NCBI GenBank assembly: GCA_020851735.1
Contig: JADZCD010000011.1
Coordinates: 1 to 64,000, forward strand
Length of the DNA: 64,000 bases
From: Phycisphaeraceae bacterium
GTDB lineage: Bacteria > Planctomycetota > Phycisphaerae > Phycisphaerales > Phycisphaeraceae
Direction: 5' to 3'
The position numbers were made by a program, and so were the translations under genes. Every line of letters starts with the position of its first letter. Position 1 is the stretch's first letter. A model generated the notes under the pieces. That model ran no database searches. It was not told the origin of the DNA and saw only the letters and a program-made list of their open reading frames with translations. Shown here in pieces: positions 25,227 through 29,724 of this stretch.

Positions 25227-25322
25227 CTTGCGGGGCGGGGGGAGTTCGAGTTTCGGGAGCCGGGGTGGTGGCTACCGGGGGGACTTGCGGGGGGACTTCC
25301 GGGGGACTTGCGGGGGGATTTG
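25227..25322. repeat. CCCCCGSAAGT minisatellite array upstream of prfB
   Basis: On the minus strand the units read CCCCCCGCAAGT, CCCCCGGAAGT, CCCCCCGCAAGT and CCCCCCGGTAG, each 11-12 bases; a further unit lies near 25227-25240. Two alternating forms (GGAAGT and GCAAGT) are clear here. Confidence 0.8.
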
Positions 25323-25413
25323 ATGCGGTTGGGGGGTTAAACCGATAGAATCTGCATCTTTGGTCGCCCCCGGTACTCCAAAAGGAAATGCACCGGGCAA
25401 GAGAAAGGGCTCC

Positions 25414-26533
25414 ATGCACGAGAATATTGGCTCAATCCTCGAAAACATGCAGGCGCGGATCTTAACCGTCCGCGACTCTCTTTAACTACGACAGCAAAGT
25501 CGAAAAACTCAAGACTTTAGAAGGCAAGATGGGTGAGCCGAACTTCTGGAACAACCAGGAGTCGGCCGGCAAGGTCGTCGAGCAGGTTAAGAGCATCAAG
25601 GCTCAGGTGGAGCCGCTGCGCAAAATCACCGCCAAGCTGGACGATGCGGCGCTGCTGTGGCAGATGGCCCAGGAAGCCAACGACCAGGAATCACGTCTGG
25701 AAGTGGACGGGCAACTGGACGCGCTGATCAAGGAAGTTGATCGCGTGGAGACGTTGTCACTCATGTCGGGCAAGTACGATGCGCGGAATTGTTACCTGTC
25801 CATTTACGCCCGCGAAGGCGGGACGGAGGCGATGGACTGGACGGAAATGCTGCTGCGGATGTATTTGAATTACTGCGAGTCGATGGGCTGGCAGGTGCAG
25901 GAAGTGGACAAGACGCAGGGCGAAGAGGCGGGCTTAAAGGACGTGACGATTTACGTCAAGGGCGCGATGGCGTACGGGTATCTGTCGGCTGAGCGCGGGA
26001 CGCACCGGCTGGCGCGGGTGTCGCCGTTTAATGCCCAGGGCAAGCGGCAGACGAGCTTCGCGGCCGTGGACGTGGTGCCGGAGTTCGACGACGCGGGGGC
26101 GGTGGAGATCAACGAAAACGATCTGGACATGCAGGTGTTCGCCCGCTCGGCTGGGCCGGGGGGACAGAACGTCAACAAGGTGGCCACGGCGGTGCGCATG
26201 ACGCACAAGCCCACGGGCATTGTGGTGCTCTGCTCGGTGGAGCGGAGCTTAGAGCAGAACAAGCGGCGGGCGATGTCGATCATCAAGGGCAAGATCGAAC
26301 TGCTGGAGGAACAGAAGCGCCAGCAGGAAATCACCGCGGCTTCGGGCGGGAAGCTGGAGATGGGCTGGGGGACGCAGATGCGTTCGTACGTGATCTACGA
26401 CAACCGGGTGAAGGACATCCGCACGGGCTACGAAGTGGGCAACCCGCAGAAGGTGCTGGACGGCGACCTGCACGGATTTGTGGAAGCGGAGCTCAAGCGG
26501 CGGGCCAAGCAAAGGGCGACGGCGGGGGCGTAA
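25414..26533 (+). CDS. prfB: Peptide chain release factor 2 (programmed +1 frameshift)
   Basis: RF2 ends translation at UGA and UAA. The start ATG 25414 follows AAAGGG. The zero frame encodes 23 codons and meets TAA at 25483-25485 after CTT; the +1 frame from AAC 25484 then runs to 26533, giving 372 residues in total (E. coli RF2 has 365). The +1 frame has its own stop upstream and no usable start before ATG 25529, which would drop 38 N-terminal residues. The codon-recognition tripeptide SPF is in [10 protein letters not shown] and the catalytic GGQ in [13 protein letters not shown]. The joined sequence [12 protein letters not shown] matches the RF2 N-terminus. Unusual points: the shift codon is UAA rather than UGA, and no AGGGGG-like stimulator precedes it. 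Confidence 0.92.
25480..25489 (+). other. prfB frameshift site CTT-TAA-C
   Basis: CTT (25480-25482), TAA (25483-25485), C, then TAC GAC. Slippage of the Leu tRNA from CUU to UUU would make AAC (Asn) the next codon. The classical site is CUU UGA C. The ten bases upstream (CCGCGACTCT) contain no purine-rich internal Shine-Dalgarno. Confidence 0.85.
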
Positions 26534-27105: not shown

Positions 27106-28272
27106 ATGAGCCTTGATCTTCATAGCGTGCAAACCAAGTGTCGGCAGGCCCGTGAGGGTTTGTGGCAGAACAGTCAGGGCGTGCTGGGCTACGACCAGCC
27201 CGTGCTGTGGGAGGGCGGAGTCTACGGAGGCATCTGGCTGGAGTGCGGCCCGCACGAGGCGTCGATTTTTGCCGGGCATGATCCCAAGGCGATTCCCATC
27301 GCCATCGCCAGCCACCGGGTTTTCTATCACCATCAGCGGGAAGACGGGCAATTCCCCTGCTGGATCAAGACCGATCAGATGGCGTACAGCCAGATTCAGA
27401 TGGTGGTGCCGATCGCGTCCACGGCCCTGGATGTCTATCAGCTCAGCGGGGACAGACAGTTTCTCATTGACAGCTACGCAGCCTGCGCCCGCTGGGACGA
27501 TTGGCTGGCCAAATATCGCAACACGCGCGGCACGGGCTTGTGCGAGTGCTTTGTGGAGTATGACACCGGGCACGACAACAGCCCGCGTTTTGCCCACGGC
27601 ATGTTGCGCGAATGTCCCGGCGGGGACGCCCGCAACTGCCCGACGGGATTCAACCTGCCGTGGCTTTCGCCGGACCTGTCAGCCACGGTTTACGGTGGGC
27701 GTGTGGCCCTGGCAAAGATGGCCGAACTGCTGAGCAAGCCGCAGGAAGCCAAGCAGTGGCGTGACCGAGCGGAGGCGATTCAAAAGGCGATCATGGCCCA
27801 CTGCTACGATCCGGCCAGCGAGTGTTTTTATGATCGGGACATGACGGGACAGTTCGTGCGCGTGCGCGGGGACGCGATGCTGCGGGTGCTGATGGAGCAC
27901 GTGGTGGATCAGCCGACGTTCGACCGCATCGCCAAGCGGCACCTGTTTAACCCCGAGGCGTTCTGGACGCCGTATCCGTTCCCGTCGATCGCGGCGGACG
28001 ATCCGACGTTCGTGCGGGCCTTGCCGGGCAATTCCTGGGGCGGAGCGAGCCAGGCCTTGGCGGCGCTGCGGGCTCCGCGCTGGCTGCCGCACTACGGGTG
28101 CCAGAAGCAGTTAGAGCACCTGATGCGGCCATGGGTCCAGTCGCTGGTGCGGGCCAAGGCGTTTATGCAGCAATTAAATCCCTGGACGGGCGAGCCGTTG
28201 TTTTCCGAAGGGTATTCGCCGGCTATGCTGGTGATGATTGATTTCGCGGCCCGCCTGGGATTTGGCGCCTAG
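27106..28272 (+). CDS. Alpha/alpha-barrel glycosidase (MGH1/GH63-like)
   Basis: 388 residues. Helical-toroid pattern with YHHQREDGQFPCWIKTD near residue 73, LDVYQLSGDRQFLIDSYAAC near 110, YDTGHDNSPRF near 153 and LPGNSWGGASQALAALRA near 305; this resembles the mannosylglycerate-hydrolase-like/GH63 and trehalase folds, which cleave alpha-glucosides by inversion. Substrate unknown. No signal peptide. The sulfatase gene starts 45 bases downstream on the same strand, so the two are probably one transcript. A terminator just upstream separates it from the preceding gene. Confidence 0.75.
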   Translation: MSLDLHSVQTKCRQAREGLWQNSQGVLGYDQPVLWEGGVYGGIWLECGPHEASIFAGHDPKAIPIAIASHRVFYHHQREDGQFPCWIKTDQMAYSQIQMVVPIASTALDVYQLSGDRQFLIDSYAACARWDDWLAKYRNTRGTGLCECFVEYDTGHDNSPRFAHGMLRECPGGDARNCPTGFNLPWLSPDLSATVYGGRVALAKMAELLSKPQEAKQWRDRAEAIQKAIMAHCYDPASECFYDRDMTGQFVRVRGDAMLRVLMEHVVDQPTFDRIAKRHLFNPEAFWTPYPFPSIAADDPTFVRALPGNSWGGASQALAALRAPRWLPHYGCQKQLEHLMRPWVQSLVRAKAFMQQLNPWTGEPLFSEGYSPAMLVMIDFAARLGFGA

Positions 28273-28317
28273 GGCGGCGCAAAAGCGTATGGGCGGTATA
28301 CAGCAGGGGTGACAGGG

Positions 28318-29724
28318 ATGGCTGGGCCCAATATTCTCTTGTTCCTGACCGATGACCACGGTCCGTGGTCGTTAGGGTGCTACGGCAACAGCGAGTGCCG
28401 ATCACCGACGCTGGATCGTCTGGCGGCGGAGGGCGTGCGTTTTGCCAACGCCTTTACGCCGTGCCCGGTCTGCTCGCCGGCGCGGGCGTGTCTGCTGACG
28501 GGGCGCACGCCGTCGCAGGTGGGAATTCACGACTGGCTTTGGGAGGTTGACCCGCAGATCGGTGACCGTGACTGGCTGGCGGAGGAAATCACGCTGCCGC
28601 AGTTGTTGCAGCAAGCGGGATATTACTGCGGGCTGTCGGGCAAGTGGCACTTAGGGCAGTCGCATAAAACGCCGCGGGGATTTGACTGGTGCTTCGGCTT
28701 GCCGCGCCGGCAGGGCAAGCACATTCAGGAATACACGTACCACCTTAACAACGAGCCGGTGACGCTCACGGGCAACAAGACGGGATTCATCACGGATTAC
28801 GCGCTGCGTTTTCTGGAGCAGGCGCCGGCGGATCGGCCGTTTTTCCTCAACGTGGGCTACATCGCCACACATTCGCCCTACGGCGAGCACGAGCCTGATT
28901 TGATGGCTTCGTACGCGGGGGCGTCGTTTAGGGATATTCCCGTGTACGAGCCGCACCCCTGGCATAAGAACGAGGGGATGATCAACGGCGATCAATTCTC
29001 GCCGCACGATTTGCGCCGGTTGTATGCCGGCTATTACGCGGCGGTGACGGACATGGATCGCCACATGCGGCGCATTTTCGATGCGCTGGGCCGGCAAGGG
29101 CGATTGGATGACACGCTGGTGATTTATACGGCGGACCACGGCTGTGCGCTGGGGCATCAGGGTTTCTGGGGCAAGGGTAACAGCACCCGGCCGCTGAACA
29201 TGTATGAGGTTTCCCTGCGCGTGCCGCTGTTGATGCGCTGGCCGGGGCGGATTCCGGCGGGCAAGGTGGTGGCGGATGGCGTGGATCACTACGACCATTT
29301 CAAGGCGATCTGCGCGGTGGCGGGCGTGGACCTGGAGCGAGCGCATCTGGCGGAGCGGCGCTATCCGGGGCGGAGCCTTTGGCCGCTGGCGTGTGGGCAG
29401 ACGATCGCGGATTGGCGGCAGACCCGCTTCGGAGAATACGGCGACCTGCGGATGATCCGCACGCCGGGGCACAAGCTGGTGCGGCGGTATGGACACCGGC
29501 CGGATGAGTTGTTCGACCTGCGGCAGGACCCGTTGGAGAAAAACAATCTGGCGGCACAGCCGACGGCGGCGGATCTACGCGCGACGATGGAAGCGGAGTT
29601 GGAGGAATTTTACGCCAAGCACGACGATCCCCGGCACAGCGGCCTGCGGGTCAAGGAACTACCCAAGCAAAACGACGCGGCGGAAGCGTGGCGGGATGGC
29701 CTGCGCGAGGCGCGCTTCCCGTGA
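28318..29724 (+). CDS. Type I (formylglycine) sulfatase
   Basis: 468 residues. Cys52 in CSPARACLLTGR is the residue converted to formylglycine by an FGE or anaerobic maturase, neither of which is in the window. Metal ligands are visible at LFLTDDHG (start) and YTADHGCALG (about residue 272), and the Lys of SGKWHLGQ (about 108) is in place. It removes sulfate esters, most often from sulfated polysaccharides. No clear signal peptide is present, unlike many planctomycete sulfatases, so it may act in the cytosol on imported fragments. ATG 28318 with AGGGG upstream is preferred to GTG 28309. Probably co-transcribed with the glycosidase upstream. Confidence 0.93.
   Translation: MAGPNILLFLTDDHGPWSLGCYGNSECRSPTLDRLAAEGVRFANAFTPCPVCSPARACLLTGRTPSQVGIHDWLWEVDPQIGDRDWLAEEITLPQLLQQAGYYCGLSGKWHLGQSHKTPRGFDWCFGLPRRQGKHIQEYTYHLNNEPVTLTGNKTGFITDYALRFLEQAPADRPFFLNVGYIATHSPYGEHEPDLMASYAGASFRDIPVYEPHPWHKNEGMINGDQFSPHDLRRLYAGYYAAVTDMDRHMRRIFDALGRQGRLDDTLVIYTADHGCALGHQGFWGKGNSTRPLNMYEVSLRVPLLMRWPGRIPAGKVVADGVDHYDHFKAICAVAGVDLERAHLAERRYPGRSLWPLACGQTIADWRQTRFGEYGDLRMIRTPGHKLVRRYGHRPDELFDLRQDPLEKNNLAAQPTAADLRATMEAELEEFYAKHDDPRHSGLRVKELPKQNDAAEAWRDGLREARFP

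Follow-up and report, generated by a model that had tools for sequence, protein, structure and literature searches.

The RF2 gene (prfB) of a Phycisphaeraceae bacterium carries, with a probability that we put at about 0.82, an autoregulatory +1 frameshift site in which a hairpin built from leader codons takes the place of the internal Shine-Dalgarno (SD) element and in which a UAA stop makes the feedback respond to total release-factor activity. The prfB frameshift is a textbook case of programmed frameshifting. A 2025 survey of more than 12,000 genomes judged its elements to be almost completely conserved, with nearly all bacteria using one mechanism (PMC12421855). The whole class to which our bacterium belongs apparently relies on a different stimulator, in keeping with a principle found only recently in yeast. 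It offers a natural experiment for telling apart two possible causes of +1 stimulation, a duplex at the exit site and anti-SD pairing. The conserved UAA raises the question of which quantity the loop measures, RF2 or total release-factor activity.

The window (the whole 64,000-nucleotide stretch of DNA that was analyzed) contains the single prfB locus of the genome, at 25414-26533 on the forward strand (Table 1). A sequence-only reading of this DNA had placed the start at ATG 25414, the CTT-TAA at 25480-25485, and the remainder of RF2 in the +1 frame, and the sequence bears these coordinates out: the zero frame runs from ATG 25414 to CTT (25480-25482) and TAA (25483-25485), followed by C at 25486. 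The +1 frame extends from AAC 25484 to a stop ending at 26533 and encodes 349 amino acids, beginning with NYDSKVEKL. In a profile search, it scored 415.9 bits against TIGR00020 (cut-off 370). The match begins at residue 2 of this frame, and the residues encoded upstream of an in-frame ATG at 25529 fit the RF2 profile.

Table 1. Features of the prfB frameshift site, in window coordinates.
Feature	Position	Strand	Basis or remark
prfB zero-frame leader ORF, 23 codons, UAA end	25414..25485	+	sequence; leader motif ARIxxIRDSL kept in relatives
Hairpin 5' arm, CGCGGAU	25454..25460	+	register scan; covariance-model match
Hairpin loop, 7 nt, CUUAACC	25461..25467	+	single-sequence fold; loop variable in class
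Hairpin 3' arm, GUCCGCG, -12 to -6 from CUU	25468..25474	+	register scan; overlaps part of the SD-like place in other bacteria
5-nt spacer ACUCU, hairpin to shift codon; A-5 invariant, UCU spacer codon	25475..25479	+	column composition
Shifty stop CUU UAA C: P-site CUU, A-site UAA, +4 C	25480..25486	+	sequence, relatives
Main RF2 coding frame (+1), SPF and GGQ motifs	25484..26533	+	reading frame, profile match

The site shares with known autoregulatory prfB sites a short zero-frame ORF with an early stop and RF2 in the +1 frame, a CUU_U slippery codon with C after the stop, and a stop that RF2 can read (UGA or UAA, never UAG; UAA in the window). Across the class, CTT-T was present in 148/148 loci and the +4 C in 146/148 (column composition), and the stops were TAA or TGA only. 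The UGA specifically, found in 98.6% of known cases, and a purine-rich SD-like element of the AGGGGG type 3 nt before CUU are both missing. Because the site lacks the SD-like element (AGGGGG), we regard it as a variant and not as a canonical member of the prfB frameshift family.

Other features of the window and of the genome were recorded. G-rich short tandem repeats (gggggactt units) lie directly upstream of the prfB leader, at 25260-25325. Downstream, 28309-29724 encodes a sulfatase-family protein (arylsulfatase and choline-sulfatase models, both below their cut-offs), preceded by a region (27106-28272) with weak resemblance to glycoside hydrolases. Two short and weak release-factor profile matches, at G000:C57:88716-88889 and G000:C62:182128-182397 (L003 and L004), possibly represent rescue hydrolases of the ArfB kind.

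Upstream of the shift codon, positions 25454-25474 can form a 7-bp RNA hairpin that ends 5 nt before CTT. All sampled relatives from the order that shift have CGCGGAT-(7 nt)-ATCCGCG or a variant of it, ending at exactly this distance. A register scan of 148 class loci detected one diagonal of seven pairs, from (-26,-6) to (-20,-12), each paired in 88-98% of the loci; neighboring registers were not paired. When the partner was slid by one column in a diverse set of 45 sequences, pairing fell from 91% to 31-48%. Complete pairing (7/7) was found in 78% of 151 class loci versus 8% under synonymous resampling with family codon use, a procedure that alone gives 5.2/7 pairs on average. Compared to synonymously resampled codons, the mean folding z was -1.98 in the class versus -0.34 in other classes. 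The fold of the window's own sequence was unexceptional against shuffles (z -0.39), single-sequence folding being uninformative here.

The pair (-25,-7) links the third positions of an Ala and an Arg codon, and changes at both are silent. The combinations found at class loci were GCG-CGC (57), GCC-CGG (51), and GCA-CGT (2). Covariation was evaluated against a tree-keeping null, in which substitutions were redistributed over the same tree by our own script in the manner of R-scape. The pair (-25,-7) ranked 1/1081 (E 0.005) and (-22,-10), on the same diagonal, 3/1081, with repeated double changes. Only two of the seven pairs are variable enough for covariation, and just one of these passes the tree-aware test by itself. 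A covariance model of the hairpin with its shift site matched 270/298 class genomes, nearly always once each. In the genome under study, it matched prfB only (25450-25489, 49.6 bits; next best 16.9). In Rfam, no family scored above chance level for the hairpin. Together, the comparative data indicate that the hairpin exists, that it is selected at the RNA level, and that its spacing is fixed.

The pairing is not uniform across the class. Some members of families f8 and f22 are down to 4-5 pairs; in f7 and f16, the register is a different one. By eye, a potential hairpin CCTTGA-x-GCAG...CTGC-TCAAGG ending at -6 was recognized in f7 (L055, L074), and a potential GAGCGC/GCGCTC hairpin slightly further upstream in f16 (L053, L058, L060, L073), as though the structure had arisen anew or moved near the same place. 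In another class, a prfB site of family f64 (L234, 1035-1074) shows potential CGCG/CGCG pairing and almost no SD complementarity; its covariance-model score of 34.3 bits was the second best in a 70-locus set.

The link of the hairpin to FRAMESHIFTING is seen in uninterrupted genes. Six prfB genes of the class that read through without a shift keep 4-5 pairs and have lost the CTT codon, and the frameshifted prfB genes of the own order keep 6 or 7 pairs. No covariance-model match was obtained in the uninterrupted relatives checked. These genes also have altered amino acids at the place of the hairpin, and their leader motif is not kept intact. This comparison of sequences shows that the hairpin accompanies the frameshift and is degraded in genes that have lost it.

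The sequence-only reading had noticed that the usual AGGGGG stimulator is missing. No AGGGGG precedes CTT in the window, but that reading overlooked the replacement, which is the covarying hairpin. The site of the window belongs to the CGC type, which has almost no SD complementarity. Median anti-SD pairing was -0.3 kcal/mol for the CGC type and -5.4 for other classes of the phylum; the CGG type had -4.0 and E. coli -10.7. CGG-type sites, about half of the class, keep a weak GGGA SD-like remnant, and in these the hairpin and the SD could cooperate. In other classes of the phylum, AAGGAC, AGGGAC, or AGGGGG stands before the spacer codon. Loss of the anti-SD from 16S rRNA was ruled out as the cause of the missing SD: CCTCCTT is intact at the 16S 3' end of order members. 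The 16S 3' end was not found in the bacterium's own assembly, and the 16S of relatives was used instead. A reasonable history would lead from an SD-like element through a hairpin including an SD remnant (ATCCGGGAC) to an SD-free hairpin (ATCCGCGAC), with the opposite arm compensating.

For the stop codon, prfB was extracted from relatives at family, order, class, and phylum level; the own order comprises families f1-f6. CTT-TAA was present in 28/39 frameshifted prfB genes of this order (72%), and the remaining 11 had CTT-TGA. TAA was found in 4/112 frameshifted genes in the rest of the class and in 0/~70 in other classes of the phylum, where all had TGA. A pattern scan of public genomes for the shift site gave at least 119 matching stretches; 79 of the 80 loci examined were RF2 genes with UAA, nearly all labeled Phycisphaerales, Phycisphaeraceae, or Planctomycetota, and two complete genomes, CP087563 and CP050848, have the CTTTAAC prfB site.

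This recurrence, at the same place in the 28 genes of the order and in two complete genomes, upholds the earlier claim that the UAA is no sequencing error. The expectation that CTTTAAC would be conserved in relatives held for those 28 genes; it failed for the 11 with TGA and for five sampled members of the own family (L006, L009, L033, L071, L029), in which prfB reads through in one frame. As a whole, the sequence-only reading is partly supported. An RF2 tree implies about 10 switches of the stop between TAA and TGA, and three losses of the frameshift within the class. Two independent losses apparently occurred in the own family, one in a four-genome clade and one in L029. UAA shift sites outside the order, in families f11 (L127, L135) and f18 (L034, L035), apparently have separate origins. 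The sequences show that UAA is conserved in the order, although not as a strict requirement, given the roughly 10 switches on the tree.

With CUU in the P site, the 3' arm (-12 to -6) would lie at the mRNA exit side, adjoining the E site, in a place that overlaps that of the E. coli SD-anti-SD duplex (AGGGGG at -9 to -4). Most probably, the hairpin folds behind the ribosome and helps it to slip into +1; by analogy with hairpins known to stimulate such shifting, it is a probable +1 stimulator. Its folding or refolding would hold or pull the mRNA 5'-ward and, whenever the stop is read slowly, would help the Leu-tRNA to move from CUU to UUU.

UAA is read by RF1 and by RF2, from which the sequence-only reading had predicted weak RF2-specific feedback at this site, unless RF1 is limiting or the site responds to the total release-factor level. 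Because most members of the order have UAA at the site, termination by both factors would compete with the slip, and the feedback loop would sense total release-factor activity on UAA, not RF2 alone. With UAA, RF2 synthesis is therefore likely to depend on RF1 plus RF2: if both compete at the site, RF2 synthesis would be lower when either is abundant. Other causes of the UAA were considered. Low use of UGA was ruled out: in UAA-site genomes, about 65% of genes end with TGA (pooled loci, crude ORF calling), and RF2 is therefore still needed. A damaged RF1 is unsupported, as the RF1 encoded elsewhere in the own genome (C5) has the PAT and GGQ motifs, though its score is below the NCBIfam cut-off. 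A protein-level need for Asn instead of Asp is unlikely, since uninterrupted relatives have other codons there.

In its widest form, the proposal states that the class swapped the SD duplex for a hairpin, which would be the first upstream-hairpin stimulator of +1 shifting to occur naturally in bacteria, and that the UAA of one order acts as a sensor of RF1 plus RF2. We give it slightly less than even odds. In the open-licence PMC literature, we found no example of a natural bacterial hairpin stimulator of +1 shifting.

The hairpin might instead be a by-product of codons, the conserved stretch being the protein motif ARIxxIRDSL. The motif is conserved in the class and its amino acids are permissive, resampled codons already forming most of the pairs. 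However, third codon positions show synonymous covariation, complete pairing occurs ten times as often as under synonymous resampling, and the motif is not intact in uninterrupted relatives. We reject this origin because of the synonymous covariation and consider it highly improbable. We see a better, though still small, chance that a weak SD (GGGA or AAGGA) drives the shift and that the hairpin merely tunes access to it. CGG-type sites (CCGGGACTCT) keep anti-SD pairing near that of other classes of the phylum, and AAGGAC lies inside the 3' arm of family f7, but CGC-type sites, including the window, keep the stem despite having almost no such pairing. As the evidence for the hairpin is positional and comparative, it would also fit an unrelated regulatory RNA, for example one involved in mRNA stability or leader regulation, that chances to sit in the leader. 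This is very unlikely given the fixed 5-nt distance to CTT, the one strong copy per genome at prfB, the degradation where the frameshift is lost, the lack of an Rfam match, and a position at which a synthetic hairpin and the yeast ABP140 hairpin stimulate +1 shifting. We give next to no credence to a sequencing error, a pseudogene, or RF2 synthesis from the internal ATG without shifting. Such a start codon is available in frame, but the +1 residues before it follow the RF2 profile, this is the only prfB in the genome, and the site recurs in more than 100 relatives and in the two complete genomes; the recurrence and the profile match rule these explanations out.

A stronger contender concerns only the stop: UAA may be tolerated single-base drift from UGA without regulatory meaning, UAA being read mainly by RF2 anyway. 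The change from TGA to TAA is one transition, the stop has switched repeatedly on the tree, and evidence has been cited that RF2 may be the main reader of UAA in most bacteria (PMC12421855). The concentration of UAA in the order, compared to its rarity in the rest of the class and its absence from other classes, speaks against drift, as does the low share of TAA ends, only about 17% of genes, in these GC-rich genomes (pooled loci). This order-level contrast is nevertheless compatible with drift within a lineage, and we hold this explanation to be quite plausible, if somewhat less than an even bet. Sensing of RF1 plus RF2 remains our preferred reading of the UAA.

A UAA prfB shift site as such is not new: Prince et al. 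2025 (PMC12421855) already reported CTTTAA in 1.4% of prfB frameshift genes. They called it randomly distributed and judged TAA to be poorly tolerated since it was unfixed in particular clades. Their variants have the UAA premature stop in common with our sites and are scattered, whereas UAA dominates in the window's order. This dominance contradicts the statement of no clade fixation and is a counter-example to it. A hairpin is present at the Phycisphaerae sites and goes unmentioned in their text.

Compared to the E. coli RF2 type, the gene, the place, the CUU slippery codon, the stop, the +4 C, the short leader ORF, and RF2 in the +1 frame are the same. E. coli has CUU UGA C with AGGGGG; in Phycisphaerae, a hairpin appears to replace the SD-like element, and the stop is mostly UAA in the order. 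In the work of Huang et al. 2018 (PMC6321510), a synthetic upstream hairpin at CUUUGA stimulated shifting to about 60% of the SD level when assayed in an RF2-free E. coli 70S extract, and the authors named it a functional mimic. Those hairpins likewise adjoin the E site and stimulate +1 shifting on 70S ribosomes; in contrast to ours, the hairpin is artificial and has 12 bp, and the sections consulted name no natural bacterial case. The 5' stem-loop of T4 gene 60 is likewise an mRNA structure at the ribosome exit that acts on the ribosome ahead, but it supports a 50-nt bypass, not a +1 shift (PMC5009743).

The yeast gene ABP140 has a natural stem-loop 6 nt before CUU_AGG_C that raises +1 shifting from 40 to 60%, and one extra spacer codon abolishes the stimulation, indicating strict spacing (PMC12661321). 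Its authors put forward a model in which the hairpin, as it forms, pulls the mRNA 5'-ward, and they expected further cases; the bacterial evidence that they cited was artificial or concerned bypass only. Like ABP140, the Phycisphaerae sites have a natural, conserved stem-loop with compensatory changes no more than two codons 5' of a CUU +1 codon, and the spacer is strict (5 nt in nearly all loci). The two differ in that ABP140 involves the eukaryotic 80S ribosome, a hungry AGG codon instead of a stop, and a different gene (PMC12661321). The two structures are clearly convergent, and in position, spacing, and slippery codon the Phycisphaerae hairpin would fit the pulling model proposed for ABP140.
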